Part shown: positions 13,836 to 56,209 of the stretch, piece after piece | How the letters are laid out: every line of letters starts with the position of its first letter | Position numbering within the stretch: position 1 is the stretch's first letter | Source: a virus | Length of the DNA: 64,000 nt | Virus record (IMG/VR): IMGVR_UViG_3300027741_000025 | Coordinates: 80,364-144,363 of that record | Direction: 5' to 3' (one strand) | Program-made: the position numbers and the translations under genes | Notes under the pieces: generated by a model | The model's database searches: none | The model's input: the letters and a program-made list of their open reading frames with translations, nothing else | What the model was told of the DNA's origin: nothing

Positions 13836-14222
13836 ATGAAATCATTCAAATTATTCTCAGAGAAAAAAGACAACGATCTTGCAAAAAATGATATTCATAA
13901 AATAATAGAATATAGCAAAAAATTACAAGAAATCATCAAAACCAACATAGAATTAGAAGATTGGGTTAAAGCTAAATTAACCCATGCCGAAGACTATCTT
14001 AATACAGTATATGATTATTTGATGTTTTATAAGCAAGATAATAAAAACGAAAACTCAAAAATGGCTGTGGGAGACCTAAAAAGTATATTGTATAAGGCTA
14101 TAGAAATAGAAAAGCTTTTAAATAAAAAAGATATAAAAGATTGGGTTAAGGCTAAATTAAACTTGGCTGGTGAGTATATGGATGATATTTTCCACCACTT
14201 AGACTATAATAAAAACAAATGA
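13836..14222 (+). CDS. Helical repeat protein with capsid-targeting-like leader
   Basis: A 128-aa, all-helical protein. It starts MKSFKLFSEKKD, matching the F-x-x-F-x-E leader pattern. Two internal repeats share D-W-V-K-A-K-L-x-x-A-x-(D/E)-Y (about residues 47-59 and 107-119). A very similar 'DWVxxKxxxAxDYxxxVxDYL' repeat recurs in capsid-associated small proteins of T4-like phages. Its stop overlaps the next start (ATGA), coupling it to the HAD-like gene. Confidence 0.65.
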   Translation: MKSFKLFSEKKDNDLAKNDIHKIIEYSKKLQEIIKTNIELEDWVKAKLTHAEDYLNTVYDYLMFYKQDNKNENSKMAVGDLKSILYKAIEIEKLLNKKDIKDWVKAKLNLAGEYMDDIFHHLDYNKNK

Positions 14223-14671
14223 AACCAGAAAAAGTAGTATTTCTTGATATTGACGGTGTTTTAAACACCGATAAGCATTTAAGAAAATTTGGTCGAGATT
14301 ATATTGACCAAAAATTGACTTCGATACTAAGAACTATAGTGCTTCAAACAAAAGCAGAAATAGTACTTAGTTCAACGTGGAGGTTAGATGAGTATGCAAA
14401 AAATTTAGTTAAAAAAGCTCTGGAGATCAAAGATTTAAAGTTTATATGCTGTACACCGCATATTGAAAGCACAACAAAAAAAAGAACACACAGATCAGAA
14501 GAAATCAAAAAATGGCTTGAAAAACACAAAAGTGTCAAAAAATACGCAGTGCTGGACGACAGAGATGACGCAGGCTATGGAATTGAAAAAAGTTTTTTTC
14601 AAACAGATCCCAGAGTAGGCTTAACTTATTCAATAGCAGAAAAAATAGTGAGTCATTTAAATGATGACTAA
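14219..14671 (+). CDS. HAD-superfamily phosphatase-like protein
   Basis: A 150-aa protein with HAD motifs in order: FLDIDGVLN (residues 8-16; DxDGxL nucleophile Asp), LSSTWR (about 50-55; motif II Ser/Thr), a possible motif III Lys, and VLDDRDD (motif IV acidic pair, about 116-122). The LSSTWR context resembles the HAD domain of Swiss-Army-Knife RNA repair proteins and phage 5'/3' phosphatases. The substrate may be nucleic acid ends or nucleotides. Its start overlaps the upstream stop by 4 nt. It converges on the AAA+ gene with a shared bidirectional terminator. Confidence 0.8.
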   Translation: MKPEKVVFLDIDGVLNTDKHLRKFGRDYIDQKLTSILRTIVLQTKAEIVLSSTWRLDEYAKNLVKKALEIKDLKFICCTPHIESTTKKRTHRSEEIKKWLEKHKSVKKYAVLDDRDDAGYGIEKSFFQTDPRVGLTYSIAEKIVSHLNDD

Positions 14672-15795
14672 AAGCCTATTTTAGGCTTTTCTTCTTTTTT
14701 GGAGTAATTTTCTTCTTCGTTGTATATCTCAGCCAAAGTCATAGGAACATCTGTTTTTCTCTTAGACTTCATGCTTTTAAATATTTTATTGCAATTTTCA
14801 GGAGACAGAACATCAAATTCATGCTCTATTAAAAGCCTGCCTTTTCTCACAAGAGCTGAATCTATTTTTTCTTTGTTTATATTGAACGTTGCGATTATTA
14901 AAATATTTAAACAATCTCCAAGAACACCATCAGTTATGTTTAATATGTTGCTTATCGCATTGTTATCCTGATTCTCTCTGCTCCTTAAAGCTTTTTCGGC
15001 ATCCTCCAACAAAAGTATGGAGTTTCTATAGCCCATTATAAAGCTTAAAAAATCAGGATTAGTCAGTTGATCGGCAGAGCCAGAAGACAAATAGATTACT
15101 TTTCTATCTGTTTTGGTTGTCAAATATTTTATGAAAGTACTTTTACCAGTACCTGGCTTACCCGATAATAAAACCAAGCCATTTTTATTTTTCTTTGTAT
15201 AATCAATTATTTTATCAAACTTATCAGAAGCAGATTTTCCATAATTTAATTCCAGGTCTATTTTTTTATCTGGAAGCTTCACTTCAAACTTTTGTGTTGT
15301 AAGCATTCCATCCAAGCTACAAAGCAAATAGACATTTTTTTTCTTTTTATCTTCTGCCAAGAACTCCATACATTCTTTGACTTTATTTAAGGTTTCTTCT
15401 TTTTGATAAAGTATCTTGCAATTATAATTTTTGAAATCTTTTTTATTTATATTGACGTTTGATTCAACGTCATCAGCCTCCGACCCATCCAGAAAGAAAT
15501 CTATTTTGTTAATTAAATCTTTTTTGCGAAAAAATTGAATTACCAAATCTTCGTATTCATAGCAAGACTCTATATTGTTTATTTTATTTTTTCCATTATC
15601 ACTTTTTTCTAAATCAAAAGTGAACACCTTGACTGCACCTAACTTCTCAAGATTTTTAAAAGTTGCCTCGCCTATATCTGCGATAATTTCAAAAACATAA
15701 GGCTGTGCTTGAAATTTTTCACAATAATTATAAAAGATATTTAAATAAGTTCCATAATCGTGCGGTGGCGATTTTTTACAGTAACTGTTTTTCAT
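14668..15795 (-). CDS. AAA+ ATPase, BCS1-like
   Basis: A 375-aa protein. The N-terminal about 200 residues are of unknown fold. Then Walker A GKPGTGKS (about residue 212), Walker B SILLLEDAE (about 260), sensor 1 (LIIATFN, about 290) and an arginine-finger-type segment (ALVRKGRLLIEHEF). The order and the 'RKGR' after the sensor resemble BCS1-type AAA+ proteins. Such proteins remodel or translocate folded proteins; the phage target is unknown. The C-terminal codons lie in a bidirectional terminator. Confidence 0.8.
   Translation of the reverse strand: MKNSYCKKSPPHDYGTYLNIFYNYCEKFQAQPYVFEIIADIGEATFKNLEKLGAVKVFTFDLEKSDNGKNKINNIESCYEYEDLVIQFFRKKDLINKIDFFLDGSEADDVESNVNINKKDFKNYNCKILYQKEETLNKVKECMEFLAEDKKKKNVYLLCSLDGMLTTQKFEVKLPDKKIDLELNYGKSASDKFDKIIDYTKKNKNGLVLLSGKPGTGKSTFIKYLTTKTDRKVIYLSSGSADQLTNPDFLSFIMGYRNSILLLEDAEKALRSRENQDNNAISNILNITDGVLGDCLNILIIATFNINKEKIDSALVRKGRLLIEHEFDVLSPENCNKIFKSMKSKRKTDVPMTLAEIYNEEENYSKKEEKPKIGF
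14670..14690. terminator. Bidirectional intrinsic terminator
   Basis: AAAAGCCTA-TTT-TAGGCTTTT forms a 9-bp stem with a 3-nt loop. The A/T ends supply U-tracts in both directions, followed on the plus strand by CTTCTTTTTT. It spans the convergent stop codons of the HAD-like and AAA+ genes and also encodes the last residues (PKIGF) of the AAA+ protein. Confidence 0.75.
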
Positions 15796-15870
15796 AATAT
15801 CCTCGAAAGTTGATCCGAATTATACCAGAAAAATTATTCAAAATCCACTAATAATCTCATTAAAAAAAAA

Positions 15871-15895
15871 GTCTGCCTCTTTTAAGGAGGCAGAC
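15871..15895 (-). terminator. Intrinsic terminator for the SNF2-helicase transcript
   Basis: GTCTGCCTC-TTTTAAG-GAGGCAGAC is a perfect 9-bp stem with a 7-nt loop. Read on the minus strand it is followed by a run of nine T's. It would end transcription coming from the helicase gene at 16107-18965. Confidence 0.75.
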
Positions 15896-16106
15896 CTATT
15901 CATACACACAAAGAAAGAGGCAGATGTGTTATGAACTGCGGACGTTTAGCTCATGGTTAAAGCCGACTACCTTCCGCTGAGTCACCGTTTCTGCTGGACA
16001 GACGACAGCAGCAGCACATACACGGTAAGTTTTTATCATCCAACCAACATACCACAGAAAGCATCAATGTCAAGTTTCATCTTCGACGCTTGGTACATTT
16101 GTACTA
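15896..16106. other. Non-coding stretch with tRNA-like fragments but no callable RNA
   Basis: No convincing ORF is present. Between about 15935 and 16000 there is a D-arm-like TAGCTCATGGTTAAAGC and several short inverted segments (GCGGA/TCCGC; GACT/AGTC). However, no acceptor stem, T-arm or CCA-like end can be folded on either strand. The rest (16000-16106) shows nothing recognisable. It could be a decayed tRNA or a structured 3' UTR of the helicase transcript. Confidence 0.35.
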
Positions 16107-18965
16107 TTAAATAAAAAATAAATCAAGGTATTCTTTGAAAGAGACATTTTCATCCATTGCTTTAGCGGCGGCGTTAGCTATAAGCCTGTTGATCTCACTA
16201 TCAATTTCTTGCATTTTCTTTTGTGCATCAATGATCTTTTGTATTGTTTCTTCATCAACCTCTTTTTCTTGATATTCTTTTCTGTATCTTTGAATAAGCT
16301 CGGCTAACTTTCTCTTTTTCTGAACAATTACAAAAAGCTCTGTGTCTAAACCCTTAGCTATTGTGTAGGTTATATTTACTGGGTGCTCTGTGTTTATTCG
16401 GTAGATTCTTCCCTCGCTTTGTTCAGCAGACTCAGGAGTCCAGTCAAAATCGTTTATTATCATGTTTTGACTGGCGTTTGGAAAGCTTATTCCAGTTCCG
16501 CCCATCTTCATACTCATAACCAAAGCTTTGGCATTTGGGTCATTGGTAAAAACTTCTTTGACTTTATTTCTTTCCGCTTTTTTGGTTAAAGATAAATAAG
16601 TAATAACTTTGAATTTTGGATCAAGATCTTGTAATTTTTTAGATAGCTTTTCGAATATTTCACTTCCTGCTTTTACAAAGTTTGTAAAGATAACAACTTT
16701 GCTGGCTGCGTAATTGTTGGCGGGTTTGTCTAAATTTCTTTTTATTGTCTCAAAAGCCTTATTGACTGTGTAATCCACCTTCATATTAGCTAAAACTTCT
16801 CTACTGGCGATTAATTCACTTATAGCCAAATCTGGATCTTTATATCCTTTGAGCTTTTCTTTTAACTTCTTATGAAAATCTTCTTCGTGTATATCAGTTG
16901 AAGCAGCATCTATGCTTAAATTTGGCATCTCTCTTAAATCTTCTTTGGTGCGCCTCACATAAACGCCAGAGAGATTGAGCCACTTGTTTAGTTTTTCTGC
17001 AGCTCTTATTCTGTCCTCAAAACTTCCTTCTGTGTAAGCCCCTCTATAGCCACCAGGAACCATACCCGCAAAATCTCTTTTGAACTTGCCGTCTTGTATG
17101 TCTCCAAGAGGATGTCCGACAATCTTCAATTGATTTTTTACGTCAGAAGGTCTGTTTGCACTTATTGTTGCGCTTGCGCCCCATTTATACGGAATATTTT
17201 TTGTTGCTTCTTCAATGTTTTGACTTCTTTTTGCTGTTTGGTGTTTTAGCTTGTGTAGTTCATCAAATATAACTATTGAATAGTTAGCGTTCTTGGTTGA
17301 ATTGATTACATTTTGAAGATTCTTGCCACTTGAGAAATTGTCGTAATATAAAACAGTCCAGCGTTTTGGATTTGTGCCATCCTTGGATACGTCAGCGTTT
17401 TCTCCAACAACATCTTTGATTTCTTCTACCCATTGATTTTGAACTGCCTTTAAAGTTATCACAAGTGTTTTTGAATTAGATCCAACATCTTGCATCCTCA
17501 ACTCGGCAGCAGAAATCATCTGCACCGTTTTGCCCACCCCAGTGGCATCACCAAGTATTGCATGATTTCTTCCATACAAAAAGGCTATGCCATCTTTTTG
17601 CTCTTTATAAAGCTCGAATTTAGATTCAGGCAATCTTGAGTCTATCTTTTCTTTAAAGTCTGCGTCTACTTTTCCTTCTTGATCAGCTCTCTTGACTCCA
17701 CCATTTTTCAGCTTATTGTCTAATATTGCTCTAAGATCTTCAACATGATAGCCAAACCTTTTTAATATTTGCCCAAACGTAGCATACTGTTTGAAATTAC
17801 CAGAAACTACATAAGAAAAGTTTTTATCATCCCATCTATAAGATGGAAATGTGTATTGAATCAACTCCTTTAGAAATGCTTTTTGATCCTGAGAAGCTTC
17901 TCTGTATGGAACGCTTATTGTCATAACATCATCAACGCCGCCTCTTCTATCTGCGAAAGATATTATCGGTTTACTGGTTTTTATTTGCTCTGATTTCTTT
18001 TCAAAAGAAATTTCTTTTTGACTCTCCCCAGAGAATAATTCATTTTCATCTACAAATTTATCTAAATCGGTAACATCTATTCCGCCACCTACTAATTTAC
18101 TTTTAACAGCATCGTATAAATCTTTGCTATCTGCTGCTATCAAAAACTTAGGAGGTCTTGTTGAACCATCAAAACTATACCCTCTTGGAACAAGGCTGGC
18201 GCTTCTTGCAGAATCTAATATTGACTTGCTTTGATCAAAAGAAACATTTAGTTGTATTGCTATTTTTTTACCAAACCTGGTGTCTTGTATTCCGACAACA
18301 ACCAGCTGTTTCTTTTCAGAAATAGGAGTTTTTTCTTCAGAGCCAACAGGAGATCCCGAGACCTTGGTTGATATACTCATTTCTCCCGAAATCAGCTTTA
18401 CAACATCGTCTATCACCTCTGGGTGAATGTAATATGTATTTAATTGATTTCTATCTGTGTTAAAAAACTTAAACACAGGATACTTCATCGCACCATAGTT
18501 ATCCCTCACCTTGACCAGCTTTTTCTTTTCAACAATAAGATCAGAAATTTTTGTCATTAGCTTTTTACTAATTCCACCTGGAACATAAACTTTAATTTTA
18601 CCCCAGACTCTTTCTGCATCTGTGTGGATTACTATTTCTTGATGATCATCCATTTTTAAACTAGATTTGATATCATTTTCCACAGCCTTCTTTATATCTT
18701 CATAATTTGAAATTTGTGTATTTTTATAACGAGAAAGAATGGTAAGCATTCTGCTAGCTGTAGCCAATGGTATTGAATCATTGTGAAAATTAGGATCACC
18801 GACAATTGCTTTGTATGCTCCAAAATCTATTTTGTTGAACCCAGTGAAATCATCTACAACAGGAGCGCCTCTTTCAAACATATCGTGAAACGTAGTTTTT
18901 AGTAGATCTATTCCCGGACCCGACACAAGGTTTTCTTTATTTTCTAAGAATGATGTAAATTTCAT
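16107..18965 (-). CDS. SNF2-type DNA helicase/translocase with capsid-targeting-like leader
   Basis: A 952-aa protein. It starts MKFTSFLENKE, the leader pattern shared with other proteins here. The first about 450 residues are unrecognised. The helicase core follows: motif I GDATGVGKT (about 470), motif II DELHK (about 569), motif III SATIS (about 600), motif V GGTGISF (about 823) and motif VI SEGRIYRIN (about 857), the SNF2/RapA order. The final 80 residues are coiled coil. SNF2 proteins translocate on dsDNA and displace bound proteins. With the leader, this enzyme could be packaged and act on incoming DNA, but that is inference. It ends before a strong terminator and is divergent from a nuclease-like gene. 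Confidence 0.88.
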   Translation of the reverse strand: MKFTSFLENKENLVSGPGIDLLKTTFHDMFERGAPVVDDFTGFNKIDFGAYKAIVGDPNFHNDSIPLATASRMLTILSRYKNTQISNYEDIKKAVENDIKSSLKMDDHQEIVIHTDAERVWGKIKVYVPGGISKKLMTKISDLIVEKKKLVKVRDNYGAMKYPVFKFFNTDRNQLNTYYIHPEVIDDVVKLISGEMSISTKVSGSPVGSEEKTPISEKKQLVVVGIQDTRFGKKIAIQLNVSFDQSKSILDSARSASLVPRGYSFDGSTRPPKFLIAADSKDLYDAVKSKLVGGGIDVTDLDKFVDENELFSGESQKEISFEKKSEQIKTSKPIISFADRRGGVDDVMTISVPYREASQDQKAFLKELIQYTFPSYRWDDKNFSYVVSGNFKQYATFGQILKRFGYHVEDLRAILDNKLKNGGVKRADQEGKVDADFKEKIDSRLPESKFELYKEQKDGIAFLYGRNHAILGDATGVGKTVQMISAAELRMQDVGSNSKTLVITLKAVQNQWVEEIKDVVGENADVSKDGTNPKRWTVLYYDNFSSGKNLQNVINSTKNANYSIVIFDELHKLKHQTAKRSQNIEEATKNIPYKWGASATISANRPSDVKNQLKIVGHPLGDIQDGKFKRDFAGMVPGGYRGAYTEGSFEDRIRAAEKLNKWLNLSGVYVRRTKEDLREMPNLSIDAASTDIHEEDFHKKLKEKLKGYKDPDLAISELIASREVLANMKVDYTVNKAFETIKRNLDKPANNYAASKVVIFTNFVKAGSEIFEKLSKKLQDLDPKFKVITYLSLTKKAERNKVKEVFTNDPNAKALVMSMKMGGTGISFPNASQNMIINDFDWTPESAEQSEGRIYRINTEHPVNITYTIAKGLDTELFVIVQKKRKLAELIQRYRKEYQEKEVDEETIQKIIDAQKKMQEIDSEINRLIANAAAKAMDENVSFKEYLDLFFI

Positions 18966-20046: not shown

Positions 20047-20502
20047 ATGAAAAACTTTCTATTCTTTTTATTGTCTGCTTCAATACTTGGATGTTCTGTA
20101 AGAGTCGATCAAAAACAAACATTCCCAAAACAAAATATGGAGAAAAAAGAAGGTGAATTCTCTTTGATTCTTTTAAATCTTCATAACAAAACAAGAGAAG
20201 AAAGGGGTTTAAAGACACTTTCGATAGATGAGGGTTTGATGGTATACGCTCAAAATCACGCAGACAAAATGCTATCCAAAGACAGTTTGACGCACTCTAA
20301 TATCTCATCCCTACTCTCCAACTATGATGGTTACGTTGGAGAAAATATAGCCTATGGTCAAAAAGACGAAGAGTCTGTTTTAAAAGCCTGGATGAACTCC
20401 TACACACATAGAGGCAACATATTGGGTTCTTATACTAAGGTAGGTTTTGGTGTTGCCAAAAAAGAAGATAAAGTATATTGGTGCGCCGTCTTTGCTAACT
20501 AG
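20047..20502 (+). CDS. CAP/SCP-domain lipoprotein
   Basis: A 151-aa protein from the ATG at 20047 (AAGGAG 5-6 nt upstream). Residues 1-18 are a lipoprotein signal peptide ending in the lipobox SILGC. The rest is a CAP domain of the short bacterial type: LHNKTREERGL, YAQNHADKM, THSN, GENIAYG and the C-terminal HRGNILGSYTKVGFGVA...YWCAVFAN. The CAP His/Glu cleft residues appear present. Role unknown. Placement in an envelope leaflet suggests superinfection exclusion, host surface alteration or lysis. Confidence 0.85.
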   Translation: MKNFLFFLLSASILGCSVRVDQKQTFPKQNMEKKEGEFSLILLNLHNKTREERGLKTLSIDEGLMVYAQNHADKMLSKDSLTHSNISSLLSNYDGYVGENIAYGQKDEESVLKAWMNSYTHRGNILGSYTKVGFGVAKKEDKVYWCAVFAN

Positions 20503-21740: not shown

Positions 21741-23879
21741 ATGCAAAAAGTTTACAAAATAAATGAAAAGAATTACACCCTTCCTCAAGACTTTTGTTGG
21801 GAAGACTATATAGAAATTTATGATGATTTGAGAATAGCAGGTATCACCACAGAAAGACAAGCAATATATCATTATTTAATTTATGGAATCAATGAACAAA
21901 GAAAATACAAGATAGATGGAATCAAAGAAATAAAAACCACAAACAATATTATTCAAATAAATAAAACAGCAGAAAAATTCTTTGATACAAAAAATTTAAT
22001 GTATTTTTCTCCGGAGGCACCGGACTTCGATAGAAGCAGTGGAGGGAACAGACTCTTCCAAATACTAAGAATTTTAGTCCTTGATTTGAAATACAACACA
22101 TACTTTTTGTGCAACAATCCTCTTGATAAAAAATATTTTGATGCCTTGAATTCTATGGGTGTTAAATGTTATACAATAAATCCAGAAAAAAACATTTACT
22201 TAAACAAACATATTCAAGACTTTAAATCTTCAAAAATTAATTTTGATTATTGCATATTTTCTTGGTTTGATATAGCTCGACAATATTTTGATATTATAAA
22301 ATCTTATTATCCCCAAATTAAAACAATAACAGACTCTGTTGATGTACATTGGATTAGAGAAGAAAGAGGTGTGAAAGAAGGTTTGTTCCACAAAACAGAA
22401 AAGCAATTGATCGCCAGCAAAGAAGCAGAAAAAAATATTTATGAAAAATCAGATGTTGTCTTTGCTGTCACAAAAAACGATGCTCAAGAAATTCAAAAAG
22501 AGCTTCCAAATAAAAACGTTAAGATTTTATCAAATATTCATGAGCCTCAAAAAAATAGAAATAAACTGGGTAATGATATAGTTTTTGTAGGAAGTTATCT
22601 TCATCTCCCCAATCAACAAGCAGCAATAGATTGTGTCGAAATTTATAATAAATTTATTTCACAATATGAATTTAATAAAAAAAATAAACCAAATCTTTTA
22701 ATAGTTGGATCTCACCCTAACGAACAAATCAAATCCCTGGATAATGGCAAAAATATTAAAGTTCTGGGGCAAGTTGAAGACTTGGAACCAATATATGAAC
22801 AAGCAAGAGTTCTACTGGCTCCGCTTAGATGGGGAGCTGGAATAAAAGGCAAGATATGCGAAGCCGCTATGCATAAAGTTCCCATAGTTACAACCAGAAT
22901 TGGTAGTGAGGGTTTGTCGTTAACAGATAGAAGAGACGTTTATTTAGGAGAATCAAACGATGACTTCGTAGAGTGTTTGTTCAAGATATATGGAAGTAAA
23001 GACTTAAATCTATTAGACATGTCTGATAGGGCTCAGAAAAAGATATTATCTTTAACAAGTAAGCAAGCTGCAATATCTGTTTTAAAACACACACTTGGTT
23101 TCAAGAAAGTTATAATAAGCATAGTCACATACAATAACTTTAAAACATTGACCAAATGCGTAGAATCTATATTGAATAATACGGATTATTTAACCTATGA
23201 GATAGTTATTACCAACAACTTTCCAGAGCATAATAAAAAAATAACAGACTATTCAAACAAAATAAATAAAAAATATAAAAACAATAAAGTTTCTTGCATA
23301 AACAACGGAAAAAATGAGTTCTTCATAATTCCCAACAACAGAGTAATAGAATCGCACCCAGACAGCGACATAGTTTTAGTGAACGACGATATAGAGATTG
23401 TATCCAAGTGTTGGCTGAGTAATTTGTATTCCGCTGCTTATTCTGAAGGAAGTGTAGCCTGTGCAGGTGGCAAGACAATATTTCCAAATGGTTTGTTGGC
23501 AGAAGCAGGGGCAGAGCTTTACAACGACGGTTTTGGACGGAATATCGGCAGAAACGATAATCCAAACAAAGATATTTATAATCTACGACGGTATGTGGGA
23601 TATGTAAGTGGATGTTTAATGTATATTCGTAGAGACGCAATAGAGGAAGTCGGTCTATTGGACCAAAATTTGTTTCCGATGTACTACGAGGATAGTGATT
23701 GGCAATATAGGGCTCACATAAAAGGCTTGAAAAGCATATATGAGCCAAGTTGCTTGGCTGTTCACTCAGAAGGCACAACAGTACGCAGGTCTAAATTCAA
23801 TAAAATAAAAATTGTTGAAACAAATAGAGAGAAGTTCATAAATAAATATAAAGACGAAAATATAGAACAATATAACTAG
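21741..23879 (+). CDS. Two-domain glycosyltransferase (GT4-like plus GT2-like)
   Basis: A 712-aa protein. Residues 15-50 carry a short helical motif (YIEIYDDLRIAGI...AIYHYLIYGINEQRKY) often found at the front of phage and bacterial multi-domain GTs. Residues about 75-440 form a GT-B domain with VFVGSYLHLPNQQAA and the donor-binding APLRWGAGIKGKICEA. Residues about 455-700 form a GT-A/GT2 domain: SIVTYNNFKTLTKCVESI, then VNDDIEI as the DXD-type segment, and MYYEDSDW. It probably builds a glycan on virion or host-surface components. GGGAG lies 7 nt upstream of the ATG. Confidence 0.88.
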   Translation: MQKVYKINEKNYTLPQDFCWEDYIEIYDDLRIAGITTERQAIYHYLIYGINEQRKYKIDGIKEIKTTNNIIQINKTAEKFFDTKNLMYFSPEAPDFDRSSGGNRLFQILRILVLDLKYNTYFLCNNPLDKKYFDALNSMGVKCYTINPEKNIYLNKHIQDFKSSKINFDYCIFSWFDIARQYFDIIKSYYPQIKTITDSVDVHWIREERGVKEGLFHKTEKQLIASKEAEKNIYEKSDVVFAVTKNDAQEIQKELPNKNVKILSNIHEPQKNRNKLGNDIVFVGSYLHLPNQQAAIDCVEIYNKFISQYEFNKKNKPNLLIVGSHPNEQIKSLDNGKNIKVLGQVEDLEPIYEQARVLLAPLRWGAGIKGKICEAAMHKVPIVTTRIGSEGLSLTDRRDVYLGESNDDFVECLFKIYGSKDLNLLDMSDRAQKKILSLTSKQAAISVLKHTLGFKKVIISIVTYNNFKTLTKCVESILNNTDYLTYEIVITNNFPEHNKKITDYSNKINKKYKNNKVSCINNGKNEFFIIPNNRVIESHPDSDIVLVNDDIEIVSKCWLSNLYSAAYSEGSVACAGGKTIFPNGLLAEAGAELYNDGFGRNIGRNDNPNKDIYNLRRYVGYVSGCLMYIRRDAIEEVGLLDQNLFPMYYEDSDWQYRAHIKGLKSIYEPSCLAVHSEGTTVRRSKFNKIKIVETNREKFINKYKDENIEQYN

Positions 23880-24945: not shown

Positions 24946-25788
24946 ATGGATAATTTTAAGAATTTCATACTTAGCGAAATGCCTATTTCCAAGTTTCAAC
25001 TACTAGGGCAATGGGGACCGGACGCAAAAAGAAAGTATGGATATAGTGCTCAAGACACAGGAATATTAGAAAATCCCAAAGCTGTGGAGAAGATCCATAA
25101 GCATTGGAGCAACAGTAAGAATAATTTCGACTTGTATTTTTTAAGAAATTATGCCGGAACGAAACATAGGGAAAAAGGTGAGGTTAAGTCATTATGGGTT
25201 TTAAATAATTTAGGAATAGATATTAAACCAAATGAAGATGCAATAACGGTAATTTTTACCACCAATACTGGTGATGAAAAAATTCCTATGACATCCTGGG
25301 CGATTGGTCACAGGTTGGGACACGCCATCAGAATGGATCATGTTTTTGAAAATTACTTTAGAAAAGAAATAAACAAAGACTTTGAAGAAATATTAAAGTA
25401 TGTGTATGGTCTTGATATTAACAATAGAGATTTTTATTATCAGAACGATTATTTTTCTAAATATGAAAAAAATATGAAAGCTATTTTTCTCGCAGTTGGA
25501 AAGATGAAAAGTGCAAGAGAAAATATTCTTAGGAATAGCAACGAATTCATATATGAGTTGGTGGCTCAATATATCATAACAGGAAAAATAACATTTAATG
25601 ATCTGCCTAGGTCTTTAATCTTGTCGAGACAAGTTGCTTGGGGTAGACCTAACTATAGAACAAAAAATTATACCGACGAGACAGCATTTAGGGAATATAA
25701 CGAAATGCTGCATAACAATGCTTTGAAATACGAGGATTATCTTGACACTGTATTCAACGGATTAGAAGGTAAGATATTTGTTATGTAA
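24946..25788 (+). CDS. Metallopeptidase-fold protein with variant HRLGH motif and capsid-targeting-like leader
   Basis: A 280-aa protein from 24946. The start MDNFKNFILSEMP fits the leader pattern, with a possible prohead-protease cut after L-S-E. About residues 120-135 read PMTSWAIGHRLGHAIRM. The arrangement mimics HExxH, but Arg replaces the catalytic Glu, so it may bind metal without classical proteolysis or may have been repurposed. A later segment NSNEFIYELVAQYIITGKI resembles the third-ligand helix (E...E) of such peptidases. The gene is divergent from 24329-24913, and each start has an adjacent AT-box. Confidence 0.6.
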   Translation: MDNFKNFILSEMPISKFQLLGQWGPDAKRKYGYSAQDTGILENPKAVEKIHKHWSNSKNNFDLYFLRNYAGTKHREKGEVKSLWVLNNLGIDIKPNEDAITVIFTTNTGDEKIPMTSWAIGHRLGHAIRMDHVFENYFRKEINKDFEEILKYVYGLDINNRDFYYQNDYFSKYEKNMKAIFLAVGKMKSARENILRNSNEFIYELVAQYIITGKITFNDLPRSLILSRQVAWGRPNYRTKNYTDETAFREYNEMLHNNALKYEDYLDTVFNGLEGKIFVM

Positions 25789-27048: not shown

Positions 27049-30000
27049 ATGACATCAACAACTCCAATATCCGGTAATTTATTCGTTTGTGGGTATAATC
27101 GTACCCACCAACTTGGATTGCCCGATATTTGGAGCTCCTACTTTAGTTTATTAAAAACCAGTTCTGATCGATGGATAGATGCTGCTGCAGGCGGAACATA
27201 TTCGATTGCAATCCAAGAAGATGGCACTCTATGGGGAACCGGTGGTCTCCCAGGATACTCTGGGACGATTGGATTGGGAAGAACAACAACTGAAAGCTTT
27301 ACCTTAATCAACACAAAAAAATGGGTTAGTGTGGCTGCCGGTGTAAACCACACTATTGCTATACATGATGATGGAACACTGTGGGGCACCGGCACTAATG
27401 TTAACGGTCAACTTGGCTTGGGAAACACTAATAATGTTGATGAATTTACAAAAATAAGTAGCGACTCATGGATAGGTGCTGCTTGTGGCGCCACACACAC
27501 ACTTGCTATACGCAGTGACGGAACATTGTGGGTAGCAGGAGTGGGTTTTGACGGTCAGCTTGGGCTTGGTAACAGTGTTTCTACAACCTTTGGATCATTT
27601 GTGCAAATAGGAACAAGCAAGTGGAAAAGTGTGACTGCAAATTATATGAGGACAGTTGCAATACGCAGTGATGGTACTTTGTGGATCACCGGAGCCGGAT
27701 TCTCATCAAGGTCATATGACTTTATACAAATCAGTGAAAATACATGGGATAAAGTTCGTTGTAGCCTAGCTGTAAATCGTGTCGGGTGCGTTTTTGCAAT
27801 TCGTACCGATGGAACATTGTGGTGTTTTGGAGAAGGCGGAACTCTAGGTCTGGGTGATTACAACCGCCGCGACTCATTGACGCAAGTTGGTAATAACACA
27901 TGGAAAGATGTTAGTTGCCACAACAGTCACACCATGGCAATCAGAAGCGATGGAACACTATGGGCTACAGGAAATAGTTCGAACGGCAAGCTTGGTGCCG
28001 GGAGCGTATCTTTAAACCAATATTTAACTTTTATACAAGTGGGAACTTATCTTGATAATTATTGGTCAAAAGTAGTTACTGGTCCAAATCACACATTGGC
28101 GATTTCTCAACTGCCGCCGGCTCCAACACCTCCACCAACACCTGAGCCTGATACAGGAACTCCAAAAAATGGTTATTTATTTTCTGTGGGTTTTAGCCGC
28201 ACAAGCAAATCAATAACTAGTCCGTTTTCAGGACTAGGTAAAGATACAAACCAGTCTTATCTTTCGCAAATTGGAGCGGATGAGTGGGTAAGCATTTCTA
28301 GCGGTTTTGGACACACAGCAGCTATAAAAGCAGACCGAACACTTTGGACAACTGGTTATAATGAATTTGGACAATTGGGTCTTGGAGATAAAATAAACAG
28401 ATCTTCTTTTGTTCAAGTTAGCGCAGAATCTTGGTTGAAAGTGGCGACAGGAAACGCAGCAACATTTGCAATAAGGAATGATGGGACGCTTTGGGCAACT
28501 GGCGACAACCGAAATTTTCAACTTGGACTTGGCGATAATGAAAATAGGAAGAGTCTTACACAAGTCGGAACAGATTCTTGGGTTGATGTTTCATCTGGCG
28601 ATGGTCATACAATTGCTATTAAAAGTGATGGAACGCTTTGGGGGGCAGGATGGAACCAAATGGGGGAATTAAGTCTCACCGACGCAGATGGCAATCCAAA
28701 ATTATTTTTTCACGCAAGAGTTATGACTAAAATTGGCAATCAAACATGGAATTATATTTCAGCTGGTGGTAGGTTCATCATAGCAATCAGAAGCGATGGA
28801 ACATTGTGGGGATCAGGAGCCAATTCTTCAGGACAGCTTGGGCTTGGATTTAAAGATTTTAGTAAGACGACTTTAACTCAAATCGACAACGGAGTTTGGT
28901 CGAAGGTAGCTGCGGGTTTTTACAACACCTTTGCTATAAAAAACGATGGAACTCTATGGTGTGCTGGGGGTAATACATTTGGGCAACTCGGACTTGGCGA
29001 TAAAACAGATCGTGCTCGTTTAACTAAAATTGGAGTTGATTATTGGAGAGAAGTATATAATTACTGGGTAAACACCTTCGCCATCAAAGCAAATAAAACT
29101 CTTTGGATTTCCGGAGACAATAGGCTGGATGCTGACGGCGACCCTTACGGACTAATTCTAAATGGTGTAGATCGATCTTCTTTCAACCAAGTTGGAGTTG
29201 GCTGGACGAAGGTTTCTGGGAACAATAGGTGCATGTTGGCATTAAAAGAAAACATACCAACACCAACTCCAACTAATACACCGGGACCAACAGCCACACC
29301 AACTGCAACAAAATTTAAGATAACACCTACACCAACAACTACGCCCACCAAGACACCCGGACCAACAGCTACACCGACCGCTACAGCTACACCAACAAAG
29401 ACACTTGGACCAACAGCTACACCAACAAAGACACTTGGACCAACAGCAACACCAACAAAGACACTTGGACCAACAGCTACACCAACAAAGACACTTGGAC
29501 CAACTCCAACTCCTACTGTTAAAAATATTTCAAAAACTGCTCCTCCAACAAGAATTATATTTAAAAATTACACACAATTAGAATGGTATGATTCCAATCC
29601 CATATTAGCTGTTGGAGAAGCTGGTTATGAAAATGATGCTGGCGGTTTGAAATTTGGCGATGGAGCTAATCGTTGGAGAGAACTTCCTTACAGTTGCCAA
29701 AGAGGTGGATGTGTGGTTTCGACGCCAACTAACACTGCTACACCAACAGCTACACCAACAATAACAGCTACACCAACAATAACAGCTACACCAACAATAA
29801 CAGCTACACCAACAATAACAGCTACACCAACAATAACAGCTACACCAACAATAACAGCTACACCAACACTAACTGCTACACCAACACTAACTGCTACACC
29901 AACACTAACACCAACACCAACACTAACTGCTACACCAACACTAACTGCTACACCAACACTAACTGCTACAGCCGCAAACGAATACTACTGTGTTAGGTTT

Positions 30001-30927
30001 AGAACAACACAAACACCTACACTAACCAATACGGCTACTCCTACACCAACTAATACGGCTATAATAACTTCTACGCCTGCAATAACTTCTACGCCTGCAA
30101 TAACTTCTACGCCTGCAATAACTTCTACTCCAGCACCAACTCCTGGACCACATGCTGCTGATTTTATAGTAATAAATTATAATTATCCATCTGAGCTAGA
30201 TTTAAAAACTGATACAATTATCGATTATCCTGATGAAATTGGAAGAATAACTGCAGGTTCTTGTCGTATTATATTTGGAGAACCGGATATTAAAAGAGGG
30301 CAAATGATCTGGGGTGGGGCACCTGATGATGGAATTGATTCTTATCTTATAAATGTTAATAGCATATTTGTCCCCAGTTATACTACATTTACTTTATGTG
30401 TTTTCGCTAGGGCATTTTGGTACGCTAATCCGGATCCCGAAGGATCTTTGATCAGAATAGAACTAACTGCTTATAAGGGTGGAGAAATGAGTAAAGAAGG
30501 AACTCATTGGATAAATACTGGCGGAGAAATAATTTCAAGTGAAGATAAGACATATAAAGTTGACGGACCAGAACAACCCACATGTGATGGTGATTTCCAA
30601 AACTTAGTGCATATTAAATATCACGATAATGGTTTTGGTGCAGGTGCTGGCGTTGCTGACTGGATGGATCCAAAGGATCCACTTAAAACTTGCTATCCTC
30701 CTTGTTCCGGGACTTGTACTTATCACTGCGACACAGATAATGGAGGAACTTGGCGTCTTTTAAATAGTAATTGTTCTCCTATCAGCTATTGTGATTGTCA
30801 TCCAACATTAGTGCCTGAATGGGTAACAGAATGCGATAATGGATATTGCGAAGCAGGGTACCATGATCTTTGTTATATACCATGTAGTGATGAGTTTGGT
30901 GGGCATAGTCCTTGGACAAAACCATAA
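27049..30927 (+). CDS. Giant adhesin with two RCC1 propellers, Mtd_N-like domain and PT linkers
   Basis: A 1292-aa protein. Residues about 5-355 and 375-735 each hold about seven RCC1-type repeats (GHTxAIKxDGTLWxxGxNxxGQLGLGD...W), predicting two seven-bladed propellers. A PT linker runs about 738-822. An internal Mtd_N-like domain (about 831-884: [20 protein letters not shown] ... GLKFGDG) follows, then two PT linkers (892-972, 985-1034). A C-terminal domain (1037-1292) shares its first half with the middle of the 6804-9146 fibre and ends in a Cys-rich tail. RCC1 propellers usually bind proteins or chromatin in eukaryotes; here they are probably receptor-binding heads. No signal peptide. Confidence 0.85.
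29387..29504 (+). repeat. 30-bp tandem repeat in a Pro/Thr linker
   Basis: Nearly identical 30-bp units 'acacttggaccaacagctac' plus 'accaacaaag' begin at 29401, 29431, 29461 and 29491 (last one partial), encoding [10 protein letters not shown]. Confidence 0.85.
29755..29966 (+). repeat. 18-bp tandem repeats in a Pro/Thr linker
   Basis: Six copies of 'acaataacagctacacca' are followed by about seven copies of a variant 'acactaactgctacacca', all in frame (T-I/L-T-A-T-P). Confidence 0.85.
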
Positions 30928-36200: not shown

Positions 36201-37576
36201 GTTGAGGTAGATGTTGGCGTTGAGGTAGATGTTGGCGTTGAGGTAGATGTTGGCGTTGAGGTAGATGTTGGCGTTGAGGTAGATGTTGGCGTTGAGGTAG
36301 ATGTTGGCGTTGAGGTAGATGTTGGCGTTGAGGTAGATGTTGGCGTTGAGGTAGATGTTGGCGTTGAGGTAGATGTTGGCGTTGGTATTGGCGTTGAGAC
36401 GGGTATTAAAGATTTTATCGCCATTGTAAAAGCAGAACCAGGACCCACTAAAACCCATGTATCAGATCCTATCTGAACTGGGTCATATCGATCAGAGGTT
36501 GTATTGTCTCCAACTTGTCCGCTGGAGTTATATCCCCATGCCCATAGTGTACCATCACTCTTTATGGCAGTTCCGTGGTTCCAACCTACTCTTGCTGATA
36601 TCCAAGCATCGGATCCTATTTGTACAGGATGATCAACATAATAAGGGCTACTTATTCCATTTCCTAGCTGCCCTGATATATTAACTCCCCACACCCACAT
36701 TGTGCCATTATTTTTTAACGCCACACTATGTTCACCAACATGAGCATAAGCCGATTGCCAGTCGGAATCAGATCCTATTTGAACAGGCGAATACCTATCT
36801 ATGTTTGTTCCATCTCCAAGAGCCCGGGAACTATTTTTACCCCAAGCCCAGAGTGTACCATCACTTTTTATTGCAACGGTATAATTTCCCCCTGCACTCA
36901 CCAAATTCCAAGCATCAGATCCTATTTGAACAGGTGAGTGTTTTCCAACAGTAGTTCCATCTCCAAGTTGTCCGTATGTGTTATCTCCCCAAGCCCATAG
37001 TGTACCATCAGTCTTTACTGCAAGAGTGTGTTTAGCTCCAGTGGTCACAAAATTCCAAGCATCAGATCCTATTTTAATAGGCACAAGACTACCGGTGACT
37101 GTTCCATTTCCAAGATTTCCATGTGTATTATCTCCCCAAGCCCATAATGTTCCGTCATTTTTTATAGCAAGAGTGTGATTGTTTAGAAATTCACCTTTTC
37201 CAGTACTTGCCAATTTCCAAGTGTCAGATCCTATTTGAATAGGCACAAGACTATCAGTGACTGTTCCATTTCCAAGCTTTCCATGTGTATTATCTCCCCA
37301 AGCCCATAATGTTCCGTCATTTTTTATAGCAACGGTATAGCCATATCCTCCACTAACTGATGTCCAATGATATGATCCTATCTGAACAGGCGAATATCTT
37401 TCAGTAGTAGTTCCATCTCCAAGTTGTCCGTATGTGTTATCTCCCCAAGCCCACAACACTCCGGACGAATTGGTTTGTATTGATAAATCATTTTCAAGAT
37501 TAATAAAAGGCTTAGGTGTTGATTTTGCAACACTTTGATTTTTAGAAACTCTATGTATTTTCTTTATCTCAAACAT
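33035..37576 (-). CDS. Largest adhesin (1513 aa): RCC1 propeller, LecA-like domain, PT linkers, shared cap
   Basis: Residues about 20-385 are RCC1 repeats ([16 protein letters not shown]...W repeated about seven times), one propeller. A perfect STP tandem repeat spans about 389-470. Residues 492-720 are a crystallin-like/unknown beta region with [11 protein letters not shown]. About 720-838 is LecA-like ([11 protein letters not shown] ... LIGRIG ... GRLYLRPND ... DNSG). Cys-rich segments and PT linkers follow (840-1063), then a domain at 1063-1217, the CPGF module (1244-1355), a PT linker and the cap (1459-1513). A TATATAAA box lies 2 nt from the start. Probably a long host-binding fibre. Confidence 0.85.
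36180..36377 (-). repeat. Eleven perfect 18-bp tandem repeats (STP linker)
   Basis: The plus-strand unit ggcgttgaggtagatgtt occurs 11 times without a mismatch, encoding (S-T-P-T-S-T)n in the minus-strand adhesin. Perfect identity implies recent expansion or ongoing slippage and gene conversion. Confidence 0.95.
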
Positions 37577-45427: not shown

Positions 45428-46091
45428 AGCTGCCTTTATTTCTTGCTGCTTGCTTTAGTTTGCCAATACCTTTTTCTGTCATTACGACAAACTTCCATCC
45501 TCTATTTTTACAAAAAACATCACAGCTATTCCATTTAGCGTGATTTTTGGGTAGATCTGTTTGGTTGCTTGGCTTTATCTCCCAAACCTCTGTGTGACCG
45601 TCTGTGAAGTTTACAACAAGGTCTGGGTTGTAGTCGTGCTTTTCTCCTTCAAATAAATAAGGAACCTTAAAAGGCTCTACATCATAAGACAAAACTTCTT
45701 CTATATGTTCAAGGGCTTCATATACTTCGCACTCATACCCACTTCTATAGTGCATTTCTCGCCCATCATTTTTTAGGCTAACCATATAGCCTTCTCTAAA
45801 ATTGGGTCTTCTAGTTTTCTTTTCTCCCTTGCCATTAAAGTCTCTCCAAATAGTAGCCTTGGTTTGCATAACCTTTGGCATAACTTCATTTGGGTGATGA
45901 ACCTTAAAATGAGTTCTCACACATCTAACTGGAAAGCTGCATCTCTGAAGTGGGCAAACAACATAATCTCTGCCCATTTCATGCTTGTCTATTATATGTG
46001 TTCTATACTCTTGCATATCTTCTGTGGATACTCCACAAACGAAACACACATATTTTCTCAGACTGTTATTCTTTGGAAAATCGAAAGTCAT
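45411..46091 (-). CDS. TnsA-like PD-(D/E)XK endonuclease with zinc finger
   Basis: A 226-aa protein. Residues 14-40 hold a C2H2-like finger (CFVCGVSTEDMQEYRTHIIDKH). A second Cys/His cluster follows (CPLQRCSF...CVRTHFKVHH). The nuclease core is RSGYECEVYEALEH (E), HDYNPDLVVNFTDG (PD-like D) and EVWEIKPSN (E-x-K), the TnsA/phage-nuclease arrangement. It probably cuts dsDNA in recombination, packaging or host-DNA degradation. Its start overlaps the end of the 46066-46422 gene. Confidence 0.75.
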   Translation of the reverse strand: MTFDFPKNNSLRKYVCFVCGVSTEDMQEYRTHIIDKHEMGRDYVVCPLQRCSFPVRCVRTHFKVHHPNEVMPKVMQTKATIWRDFNGKGEKKTRRPNFREGYMVSLKNDGREMHYRSGYECEVYEALEHIEEVLSYDVEPFKVPYLFEGEKHDYNPDLVVNFTDGHTEVWEIKPSNQTDLPKNHAKWNSCDVFCKNRGWKFVVMTEKGIGKLKQAARNKGSFNDLF

Positions 46092-46422
46092 TGTAATTCT
46101 TGTCTTTTATTATTTTTTTAATAATTTCATCTCTGTCCACAAAACTTATATCCTTTAAATCTTTGTGTGAGAATAAGTGAGTAGAATTTTGTCCTTTTAA
46201 AGAAGGAATTAATTTAACAGCCATAAACTTGATATCTTCCTTCCAATTTTTTGGAAGATCTTCATCAGAATTTTTAATTTTGGCAAAGACTACTCTGCTA
46301 TCTTCATCAGAAGCATATAATTCTTTTTTATACTCAAAAAAAAGAGTATATTTATTCTCATCTAAGTATGAACTTACCTTAGTTTGCTTTTCTTGATCTT
46401 CAAGAAAAAAAGAAAAACTCAT
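46066..46422 (-). CDS. Small protein with capsid-targeting-like leader
   Basis: 118 aa from the ATG at 46422, giving MSFSFFLEDQEK, which fits F-x-x-F-L-E. ATGs at 46443 and 46467 are possible but would hide the leader. The rest is a charged alpha/beta protein (YTLFFEYKKELYASDEDSRVV) without a known motif. It is divergent from the 46455 gene, which has a related leader; the two starts are 32 nt apart. Confidence 0.55.
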   Translation of the reverse strand: MSFSFFLEDQEKQTKVSSYLDENKYTLFFEYKKELYASDEDSRVVFAKIKNSDEDLPKNWKEDIKFMAVKLIPSLKGQNSTHLFSHKDLKDISFVDRDEIIKKIIKDKNYNDFRFSKE

Positions 46423-46454: not shown

Positions 46455-46820
46455 ATGTATTTATCAAACTTTAAAAACTTTTTTGAAGAAAATAAACCTG
46501 ATTATCTCCAAACTGGCTTAGGTACAGAATTGGAAATGGATTGGGATGACATAGTTAAAGCTCTGGAGAAAGAGAATTGGTTCACAGCGAATATGCCACT
46601 AGGTGATCTAAACTACAAACTTGGTAAATGGAAAATAGTAAAAGGCACCTTGTCTCCAGAAGGATGCAACATAGTGGCAAAAAACAACAAAAGATCTTAT
46701 GTAGATGGAAGACTGAACAAATCCAAAGAACAAGATGGAGAAATATACCACCTCAACAGAGAACAACTAATTAGTTTTCTTACCCAAGGTTGGAGTGGTG
46801 CAGCACCAGCGCCATCTTGA
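46455..46820 (+). CDS. Hypothetical protein with capsid-targeting-like leader
   Basis: A 121-aa protein starting MYLSNFKNFFEENK, containing the NFKNF core shared with 24946 and 55943. Directly upstream is TATATTATAA, with no Shine-Dalgarno sequence. Later segments LGDLNYKLGKWKIVKGTLSPEG and REQLISFLTQGWSG look folded. Function unknown. It ends just before the resolvase-like gene. Confidence 0.6.
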   Translation: MYLSNFKNFFEENKPDYLQTGLGTELEMDWDDIVKALEKENWFTANMPLGDLNYKLGKWKIVKGTLSPEGCNIVAKNNKRSYVDGRLNKSKEQDGEIYHLNREQLISFLTQGWSGAAPAPS

Positions 46821-49376: not shown

Positions 49377-49378
49377 TT

Positions 49379-52318: not shown

Positions 52319-52777
52319 ATGTTAAAAATAAATTTCAAATATTTTCTTGAATCAGAAGAAAAATCAAACTTAGAAAAAACAATTTCAAGATTGCCCAAGA
52401 AACATAGAGAGCTTATCCATAACTACAAATTCAAATATAAAGACAAAACAACATTGGACAAAAAAAATGTAGGGTTGTTGTGTGGAGATAAAATTGAGAT
52501 AGCCGGAGGCTGGAACTACAGCAAAGAATTCGTAACTCTACACGAGATAGGACACGTTGTTTGGGAGAAATTATCTTCTTCAGAAAAACACAAGTGGAAA
52601 GATCTGTTGTCTAAAACAATAGATGATCAAAAAAAGAAAGCGGATAAAGTTAGCAAATCATCTTTAGATCAAAATCCCGAAGAAATATTTGCAATGACAT
52701 ATGCGTGTGCATATTCAAAACACCCATCGCATTATTTTTATAACAAAAAATGGATTAAATTTGTGAAGTCGATTTAA
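52319..52777 (+). CDS. Zinc metallopeptidase-like protein with capsid-targeting-like leader
   Basis: A 152-aa protein from ATG 52319: MLKINFKYFLESEEKSN fits F-x-x-F-L-E. HEIGH at about 78-82 (VTLHEIGHVVWE) is a full HExxH zinc motif, and NPEEIFAMTYACAY about 40 residues later supplies the Glu helix expected as the third ligand. It is probably an active peptidase that may be packaged and either mature the head or act in the new host. There is no Shine-Dalgarno sequence, and an AT-rich TATATATTAAT precedes the ATG. It is divergent from phoH (22 nt apart). Confidence 0.72.
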   Translation: MLKINFKYFLESEEKSNLEKTISRLPKKHRELIHNYKFKYKDKTTLDKKNVGLLCGDKIEIAGGWNYSKEFVTLHEIGHVVWEKLSSSEKHKWKDLLSKTIDDQKKKADKVSKSSLDQNPEEIFAMTYACAYSKHPSHYFYNKKWIKFVKSI

Positions 52778-55101: not shown

Positions 55102-55132
55102 GTTTTGTTCCTTTGAACCTATTTTAATTGTT

Positions 55133-55345
55133 TTAGTCTTCTATTTCAACATCAAAAATGCCGCGAGAACACATGCATTCAACACTGAATCCGCTTGAAT
55201 TCTGCACAACGTCTTTGTAAGTTTTTTCGACAGAATTAAGATAGTCTTCAGATTTCTTTAAATCTTTAAAAGCTTTTTCCACTCTGACGAAGATAAATTC
55301 ACCATTAATTTGTCTAGCGACATTCACTATTATGAAAGTTTTCAC
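55133..55345 (-). CDS. Small hypothetical protein (70 aa)
   Basis: Start MKTFIIVNVARQINGEFIFV. It has beta strands, a helix with KKSEDYLNSVEK and a Cys-containing end (SVECMCSRGIFDVEI). The start overlaps the stop of 55342-55611 (ATGA). No family recognised. Confidence 0.6.
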   Translation of the reverse strand: MKTFIIVNVARQINGEFIFVRVEKAFKDLKKSEDYLNSVEKTYKDVVQNSSGFSVECMCSRGIFDVEIED

Positions 55346-55611
55346 TCTGGGAACTCCAATTCTTCTTTTTCAATTTTAAATTTATTTTTACTGTTTTCTT
55401 TTGCTATGTACTTATCTAGATTTAAAATGAAGCTATTCAGGGCTTGAAAAGGATAGTTAGCAGCAGCCTTCTTCAAAGATTGTTTTAAATTTTCATCTAT
55501 AAACTTTTCATCAATTGCATCATAAACGTTTTTTAGTGTTATTTTAATGAAAGACCTAGGTCCTCCACCTGCCCCTGAAATATTAAATCTGACATTTTCA
55601 GCTTCTTGCAT
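55342..55611 (-). CDS. Small hypothetical protein (89 aa)
   Basis: NISGAGGGPRSFIKITLKNVYDAIDEKF opens the protein, then Lys/Asn-rich helices (KKAAANYPFQALNSFILNLDKY). It abuts its neighbours by 1-4 nt overlaps, forming an operon of three small genes (55925 to 55133). Function unknown. Confidence 0.6.
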   Translation of the reverse strand: MQEAENVRFNISGAGGGPRSFIKITLKNVYDAIDEKFIDENLKQSLKKAAANYPFQALNSFILNLDKYIAKENSKNKFKIEKEELEFPE

Positions 55612-55925
55612 TAATCTTCCTCTTTGCTTTCTTCTTCATTTGATTGATCTTCTTGTGTTGTCTCAGGAATATACTTCTTTCTTAATTTTTCATAATCCAA
55701 GTCTTTCAAAACATCGCCAACATTTGAACTGCCACTAACCACATCAACAACAGCAGATGTGTCAACTTTTCTCAAAACCTGCATTTCGATGGCTCTTTTT
55801 TTATCCTCGTCTATTGATTCATCAAGAAAATAGACTCTACCCCCAGAATAATCCACCATGCAAAAGCATTTTTTTTGATCAAAAACAACAAGCATGGGCA
55901 CTAAATATTTAATGGACATTTCCAT
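55611..55925 (-). CDS. Small hypothetical acidic protein (104 aa)
   Basis: Beta-rich start (IKYLVPMLVVFDQKKCFCMVDYSGGRVYFLDE) and an acidic tail (TTQEDQSNEEESKEED). It heads the 55.1-55.9 kb mini-operon and is 17 nt from the divergent leader-bearing gene at 55943. No function recognised. Confidence 0.55.
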   Translation of the reverse strand: MEMSIKYLVPMLVVFDQKKCFCMVDYSGGRVYFLDESIDEDKKRAIEMQVLRKVDTSAVVDVVSGSSNVGDVLKDLDYEKLRKKYIPETTQEDQSNEEESKEED

Positions 55926-55942
55926 ACAACTAACTGAGTAAA

Positions 55943-56209
55943 ATGAATTTTAAAAATTTTTTAGAATTACCTGAAGAAGATATAGAAGGAACAATAGAAG
56001 AAATACAAGACAAAAGAAATCCAATTATAATAAAAATTGATAACGGTACTCCTGCGGGAAGAGCCATAGCTTTAACTCCGGCGGAGTACAGAAGATATAA
56101 AAATATTTACAACATAGATGCTCAAACGGATGGACGTTATAACAAAAAAATCAAAGCTCGTATTCAAAAATTTGAACCTTATAAAGTTTCACAAATAATA
56201 ATTCAATGA
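55943..56209 (+). CDS. Small protein with capsid-targeting-like leader
   Basis: 88 aa. Start MNFKNFLELPEED is a clear F-x-x-F-L-E leader. The core (GTIEEIQDKRNPIIIKI ... IALTPAEYRRYKNIY) shares its end motif L-T-P-x-x-Y-x-x-Y-K with the 3289-3933 protein. Its stop overlaps the start of the serine protease (ATGA), so the leader protein and the exported protease are translationally linked. Function unknown. Confidence 0.65.
   Translation: MNFKNFLELPEEDIEGTIEEIQDKRNPIIIKIDNGTPAGRAIALTPAEYRRYKNIYNIDAQTDGRYNKKIKARIQKFEPYKVSQIIIQ

Follow-up and report, generated by a model that had tools for sequence, protein, structure and literature searches.

A probable T4-type capsid-targeting leader on many unrelated proteins of a huge phage

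The stretch of viral DNA analysed here (the window, 64,000 bases) spans bases 80364-144363 of the 144,363-base IMG/VR record IMGVR_UViG_3300027741_000025, and several of its proteins, unrelated in sequence, begin with the same kind of short aromatic leader. What is this leader doing there? Very probably it is a T4-type capsid-targeting sequence (CTS) that the prohead protease cuts and that serves a large cargo specific to the lineage. What the sequences themselves show, and what this reading builds on, is the leader, how well it is conserved, its presence on unrelated proteins, the protease and a hydrophobic-x-Glu|Cys junction. As the tag is of the T4 kind, it would be a variant of a known targeting system; what appears new, as far as the searched literature shows, is how widely huge phages use the tag and the proposed link between head maturation and the activation of a packaged N-terminal nucleophile (Ntn) hydrolase. 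The literature searched, which leaves most subscription journals outside, yields no report on huge-phage ejection proteins, jumbo-phage Ntn hydrolases, prohead-linked N-terminal nucleophiles or capsid targeting of internal proteins in metagenomic phages, and passages of PMC9723584, on huge phages, concern ribosomal protein S21. Since the leader can be recognised in sequence, it points out which proteins a huge phage probably brings in with its DNA; most of the scanned ones have no known family.

The record carries a T4-type head module outside the window, with an S77 prohead protease and a gp23-like major capsid protein. The initial annotation had proposed looking for a gp21-like prohead protease, and one is present at G000:C1:9540-9956 on the minus strand (P0002; PF03420, E 1.6e-28). 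It is 33% identical to T4 gp21 and conserves H78, S131/S132 and D158, which we take to be the catalytic residues. The major capsid protein shares 30% of its aligned residues with T4 gp23 (E 6e-41). Its closest counterpart in the phage collection, 72.6% identical over the whole length, belongs to LR756511, a 595,163-base record of an uncultured phage, and an IMG/VR scan with it returns 212 relatives, on contigs of up to 532,729 bases; 80 of the corresponding loci were kept for analysis. Given this kinship, the 144-kb record most likely represents part of the genome of a huge T4-type phage. An S77 protease is detected on 25 of 30 records searched, including LR756511 and all 11 capsid-clade contigs tried; the five records lacking a match are contigs of unknown completeness, one of which bears a leaderless Met-Cys Ntn protein. 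LR756511 has a second, diverged S77 match (W02:C1:242621-242989, minus strand; 3.5e-9) far from the capsid-adjacent copy.

The initial annotation named seven leader-bearing proteins, and all seven start codons and N-termini lie where it placed them. Its literal pattern, F-x-x-F-(L/I/F)-x-E, fits few of them; what the starts do have in common is a Met and, a short way on, F-x2-[FWY], in most cases followed by a hydrophobic residue, with a Glu not more than a few residues later. An eighth start in the window, at 3933 on the minus strand, was missing from its list. The whole-genome search for the leader that it suggested yields about 20 open reading frames (ORFs) on the record, and the leader also recurs across the relatives. 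Could so short a pattern arise by chance? At a possible start, M.{0,8}F..[FW][LIVMFR] matches 27 of the 153 called genes of the record (18 at the first start), several spurious internal starts being included in the 27, against 3 of 630 at internal Met; 1000 shuffles of the record's N-termini give a mean of 9.0 matches and a maximum of 18. A position-specific scoring matrix (PSSM) of nine columns, built from 19 leader starts of the record and circular for those seeds, places 20 distinct ORFs at 15 bits or more, 19 of them seeds, and the next at 9.5. When each seed is left out in turn the scores run from 1.1 to 21.2, the best of 602 internal Met being 9.5, and five leaders are individually weak: MKTFYEFVDHK (1.1), MSFSFFLED (6.3), MKFTSFLEN (8.5), MKRKSFFEW (9.2) and MKSFNNWIQR (9.3).

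Sequences held out of the matrix behave alike. In LR756511, 26 of 985 genes reach 10 bits or more, as do 2 of 2556 internal Met, and in the 80 relative loci the figures are 67 of 815 non-redundant genes and 6 of 3268 internal Met (at 12 bits or more, 54 genes against no internal Met); these gene counts take the first four or six starts per gene and the controls count single Met, the per-gene and per-Met rates being in different units. A plain rule that uses no profile, M.{1,3}F-x2-[FW][LIV], finds 114 of 1953 genes of the phage and its relatives (3938 candidate ATG starts) against 12 of 6040 internal Met, and at the same starts an F-to-[FW] gap of 0, 1, 3, 4, 5 or 6 finds 4-9 of 1953 genes each. 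Counted by candidate start, about 11 chance hits are expected among the 128 leader proteins. In large phages of other lineages the plain rule matches 2 of 321 genes of LR756508 (against 2 of 604 internal Met; this control covers 250 kb of 484 kb and carries a diverged S77) and 1 of 325 genes of the phage G015. Internal-Met, shuffle and spacing controls rule out a chance origin of the leader. Four likely false positives, judged by eye, were left in the counts: L003:13933 (primase-like), L101:5414 (HNH-like), L040:14676 (membrane helix) and a lipoprotein-like protein of the window (20047-20502, plus strand) with a CAP/SCP domain (1.7e-19).

How is the leader built? Among 125 non-redundant leaders the first aromatic residue stands at position 4 in 80 and at position 3 in 29, and the second, three residues on by selection, is W in 79, F in 40 and Y in 6. 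In 90% the residue after it is one of L, I, V, M and F; Glu is commonest at the second and the fifth residue beyond it, with 34% at each. With leaders picked by the aromatic core alone, a hydrophobic-x-E lies just downstream in 92 of the 125, whereas 1000 shuffles average 35 and reach at most 50. Sorted by site, 53 leaders have [LIVM]xE, 18 F/YxE, 21 only WxE and 33 none. At the corresponding place the capsid proteins of the clade have [IM]NE, in 11 of 11 distinct N-termini picked up across the 80 loci, and that of LR756511 has FNE; these are presumably their cut sites.

By blastp the 128 leader proteins sort into 80 families, between which the leader is the only similarity found (for the 91 that also obey the plain rule, 56 families). 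This largely refutes a recent duplication of one paralogous family as the source of the common N-termini in place of a modular tag. Some families do have paralogues, such as two neighbouring leader proteins with starts at 2545 and 3332 of the record, which are each other's paralogues (L002:2057-2545 and 2931-3332, minus strand); but leaders vary by indels in orthologues while the body stays, and we give duplication next to no credence. Five IMG/VR relatives of the SNF2 helicase of the window, 42-99% identical, keep leader-like N-termini that end, by eye, in hydrophobic-x-E: MKFSSFLEN, MKSIKFLIEN, MKFSDWILIKES, MKFSNWFFLRES and MINFKNWKLNVLLEN, each followed by a conserved V/ISGxG. Three of the five score at least 10 bits, MKSIKFLIEN lacks the F-x2-[FW] core, and in a sixth, more distant relative (L078) the leader is degenerate. 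Among orthologues of the protein starting at 24946, one relative has the start MDNFKNFILSE and two others, almost identical to each other, have MNFKDFINES, with E11 kept across indels. Judged from such alignments the leader is a module, retained by orthologues while its letters and length drift.

The nearest known counterpart is the CTS of the T4 internal proteins IPI, IPII and IPIII, which passages of PMC9026906 and PMC12373910 describe as some ten N-terminal residues common to unrelated proteins and associated with the gp21/S77 protease. According to the passages of PMC9026906 that deal with it, ten N-terminal residues of IPIII are enough for packaging; residues 4 and 7 have a part in targeting, 8 and 10 in processing, and gp21 cleaves after L/I-X-E. 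The targeting and the cutting positions are points of likeness, as is the site form in part of the leaders. The IPIII N-terminus is MKTYQEFIAE, and the comparison made in the initial annotation stands position by position, IPIII 4, 7, 8 and 10 corresponding to the positions conserved here; it does not stand letter by letter, the plain rule missing all three internal proteins. Unlike the T4 system, a 144-kb record has about 20 tagged proteins here, the cargo includes large enzymes, the first aromatic is F and not Y, the second is usually W and the site is often F/W-L-E. The T4 internal proteins reach PSSM scores of only 2.9 to 5.0 bits. The best T4 start, at 11.5 bits, is that of gp61.1 (NC_000866, L020:18966-19130, minus strand), a protein of unknown function beginning MKTFKEFIKED, which may be an unrecognised packaged protein.

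Two further systems invite comparison. T4 Alt, a packaged ADP-ribosyltransferase, reaches the host together with the DNA (T4 record note), and gp21 cleaves it according to passages of PMC9026906; its N-terminus differs, scoring -7.7 bits, far under the leader model. The other system is that of the inner-body and ejection proteins of phiKZ and SPN3US, likewise giant phages, which according to passages of PMC5694885 and PMC9026906 have a protease like gp21 and process many of their head proteins; several of the propeptides exceed 100 residues and the phiKZ sites are S/A-X-E, in which they differ from the leader described here.

A natural test of cleavage is offered by a family of predicted Ntn hydrolases. 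On a capsid-clade contig, the protein at L052:4752-5606 (minus strand) begins MEFKEFLFNE and continues CVVAAVRLKNDIILAKNRD, with a Cys following the Glu. It matches AAT (PF03417) barely above the cut-off (23.4 vs 23.2 bits), and 18 of 37 aligned members match PF03417 at E 0.01 or better. The AF2 model from 37 sequences has a predicted local distance difference test score (pLDDT) of 84.9, with residues 1-8 below 50, and in the PDB it comes closest to isopenicillin N acyltransferase, CV2077, NAAA, bile salt hydrolase and penicillin V acylase (Foldseek E 1.3e-9 for 2x1c and weaker; VIA Z 20.9, root-mean-square deviation 2.8 over 215 residues, for 3gvz, and lower scores for the others). Sequence searches of the PDB with these proteins find no confident relative, and narrow peptide patterns, which could miss cellular homologues, find none in genome contigs. 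The L052-type family is modelled with an Ntn fold. In the Ntn superfamily the nucleophile must be the first residue. Here Cys11 is invariant in the 37 sequences, many structural alignments of the model begin at Cys11 opposite residue 1-2 of the mature acylases, and Cys11 would become mature residue 1.

What stands in front of this Cys? A search for viral relatives found 146, of which 80 were kept and 54 are non-redundant. Glu directly precedes the predicted nucleophile Cys in 53 of the 54, and the remaining one begins Met-Cys. At P3 the 53 proteins have I (28), L (23), M (1) or F (1), over 44 distinct leader ends, and the leaders measure from 7 to well over 37 residues, depending on the start chosen. 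Two Chryseobacterium phages, the isolates MA9V-1 and MA9V-2, have the junctions FLNE|C and FINE|C, and two capsid-clade members carry the F-x-x-F leader, as MEFKEFLFNE|C and MEFRNFIENASLNE|C. The G015 member, from another lineage, begins MKNLIRSILNE; this leader type, whose pattern was written after that start had been seen, is on 5 of 325 G015 genes, itself included, and on 0 of 1103 internal Met. We read the family as one in which leaders are exchanged on a constant enzyme with a constant prohead-protease junction. The Glu|Cys junction strongly suggests cutting after hydrophobic-x-Glu in this family; the other leaders would be cut likewise.

Might the enzymes instead mature by themselves? 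They resemble the C45/AAT Ntn hydrolases (isopenicillin N acyltransferase, NAAA) in fold, predicted N-terminal Cys and PF03417 matches, and differ in a propeptide that ends in a prohead-protease-like site and is swapped between phage lineages. Isopenicillin N acyltransferase, the nearest fold, is autoproteolytic, and the best NCBIfam match, NF040521 (C45 autoproteolytic acyltransferase/hydrolase), has E 6.1e-9 and 35.7 bits at a cut-off of 85. The Glu before the Cys could then serve autoproteolysis. Set against this are a near-invariant [LI]-x-E that equals the gp21 consensus, leaders that differ widely in length and sequence, the leaderless Met-Cys member and a leader type that tracks the phage lineage. 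We regard autoproteolysis as unlikely; were it true, the capsid tag would stand and the best cleavage evidence would be lost. The Ntn sequences argue for activation by the prohead protease, which probably also activates the packaged Ntn zymogen.

Docking, packaging, cutting, ejection and enzyme activity are what we infer from all this. By analogy with T4, the two aromatics, one helical turn apart (F at about 4, W/F at about 7), would anchor the precursor to the prohead core as the head assembles. The S77 protease, which resembles gp21, would then cut after the downstream hydrophobic-x-Glu and free the cargo inside the head, to be ejected with the DNA, again as in T4. One tag would in this way serve some 20 unrelated proteins of the record and about 80 families in all among relatives, its cargo probably comprising an SNF2 helicase, exonucleases, a 2H-type phosphodiesterase, a nucleotidyltransferase, a P-loop kinase and peptidase-like proteins. 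Some relatives have an Ntn hydrolase whose N-terminal Cys this cleavage would expose, activating a packaged zymogen. We think it likely, with somewhat less assurance than for the tag itself, that head maturation doubles as enzyme activation: the protease would untag the injected arsenal and create the Ntn nucleophile, leaving the enzyme a zymogen in the producing cell and active only in virions, and the Ntn family would move between lineages, taking on the tag of each. The injected proteome of a huge phage would become a testable list, and the Ntn family allows a simple biochemical test of head-maturation proteolysis.

Are the genes expressed at the right time? The T4 late promoter is TATAAATA, and the signal upstream of leader genes in LR756511 resembles it: TA[TA]ATA, a pattern chosen after exploring upstream regions, occurs in the 45 bases before 21 of 28 leader genes and before 42 of 445 others with free upstream DNA, a significant difference. 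In the IMG/VR relative loci it precedes 39 of 78 leader genes and 149 of 713 genes of any kind. Late expression of leader genes is suggested.

Several observations weigh against the proposed capsid tag. In the present AT-rich record TA[TA]ATA precedes 12 of 22 leader genes and 29 of 69 others, which is not significant (p 0.22), and a search for a gp55-like sigma with T4 gp55 found none, the search being uninformative. The candidate for a gp22-like scaffold (L002:8464-9360), which adjoins the protease, is assigned by position only and has no match in a Pfam scan. In T4 the plain rule hits 1 of 248 called genes, gp61.1, and so misses IPI, IPII and IPIII; a version of the rule that also admits Y for F and T for L, devised with the T4 sequences already in view, hits 5 of 248, namely the three internal proteins, gp61.1 and one alternative start, with 2 of 742 internal Met. 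The Ntn family is absent from this record and LR756511 as searched, and apart from L052 it occurs in 1 of 11 capsid-clade or own records searched (LR756511 and T4 not counted). The 21 leaders with W-x-E only depart from the L/I-X-E form of T4, and 33 of the 125 lack hydrophobic-x-E within the tested stretch. The last would suit an uncleaved leader that acts as a docking helix or directs proteins elsewhere, for example to the host membrane or a phage compartment, and more than one kind of docking could rely on an aromatic amphipathic N-terminus. Against such a signal stand the Glu enriched at the expected place, the Ntn Glu|Cys junction, the S77 protease and the agreement of positions with the T4 CTS, and we consider it very improbable.

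What would the tag deliver? In 30 leader proteins scanned, seven matches exceed the Pfam cut-off: the helicase, the AAT protein of L052, PolyA_pol (L018:41680), two RNase_T exonucleases (L094:4386 and L036:12546), an AAA_33 kinase (L052:4051) and a tRNA-ligase cyclic phosphodiesterase domain. The last belongs to a leader-bearing 2H-type phosphodiesterase of LR756511 (L015:19782-20324, plus strand; tRNA_lig_CPD, 7.6e-9). Phages use 2H-phosphodiesterase folds against cyclic-nucleotide defences, and this protein may act in counter-defence after injection. A role of the cargo in early host takeover or counter-defence is likely; T4 internal proteins block type IV restriction, as passages of PMC12373910 and PMC3012670 report. 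Two resemblances noticed by eye were dropped: a kinase-like look of the protein at 5141 of the record, for which no confident family and no relative was found, and an ADP-ribosyltransferase look of L107:17215, for which no family was found.

Eight leader genes lie in the window. The 214-aa protein at 3289..3933 (minus strand) carries MKRKSFFEWIKKQE at 3892-3933 and, as a seed, scores 17.8 bits (9.2 left out); it has no Pfam or PHROG family at E 0.1 and no orthologue among the loci searched. Directly downstream of it, at 2460-3299 (minus strand), is a patatin-like phospholipase (PF01734, 2.2e-8) without a leader. The 128-aa protein at 13836..14222 (plus strand; MKSFKLFSE at 13836-13862) has no confident family in Pfam and PHROG scans, and its orthologues in L035 and L036, 65-67% identical, begin MLNFKTFLEN. 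The 952-aa protein at 16107..18965 (minus strand; MKFTSFLE at 18942-18965) is, as first annotated, an SNF2-type helicase (SNF2-rel_dom 1.1e-11, Helicase_C 2.3e-12, phrog_62 8.4e-68). The 280-aa protein at 24946..25788 (plus strand; MDNFKNFILSE at 24946-24978) has a GHRLGHA motif and a poor fold prediction (pLDDT 37). Two genes diverge across a 32-bp gap: 46066..46422 (minus strand, 118 aa; MSFSFFLE at 46399-46422; a seed, 6.3 bits left out), with a weak LR756511 orthologue at L014:21463 (34% over 94 aa), and 46455..46820 (plus strand, 121 aa; MYLSNFKNFFEE at 46455-46490; 18.9 bits, 13.6 left out). The 152-aa protein at 52319..52777 (plus strand) has MLKINFKYFLE at 52319-52351, its N-terminus being read as MLKINFKYFLES, and scores 16.1 bits without being a seed; an orthologue in LR756511, 35% identical (L013:9339-9809), begins MINTCMEGFRQFFEQTEE. 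For the peptidase label first given to it, the HEIGH motif is indeed in the sequence and the Pfam match is weak (Peptidase_Mx, E 0.018), making it a possible metallopeptidase. The eighth gene, 55943..56209 (plus strand), encodes 88 aa with MNFKNFLE at 55943-55966 (18.6 bits, 11.3 left out). Outside the window, seven leader ORFs lie in the first 5.2 kb of the record and two near 21 kb, and those at 12119, 12454 and 13768 lie just beyond the capsid and protease genes.

Three other genes of the window stand out by their domains. Two encode very large RCC1-repeat proteins, of 1292 aa at 27049-30927 (plus strand; RCC1-like domain 1.4e-92) and of 1513 aa at 33035-37576 (minus strand; 2.4e-75). The first also matches the N-terminal domain of the major tropism determinant, slightly below the cut-off, which hints at a receptor-binding role. 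The third, at 21741-23879 (plus strand), encodes a 712-aa protein with two kinds of glycosyltransferase domain.

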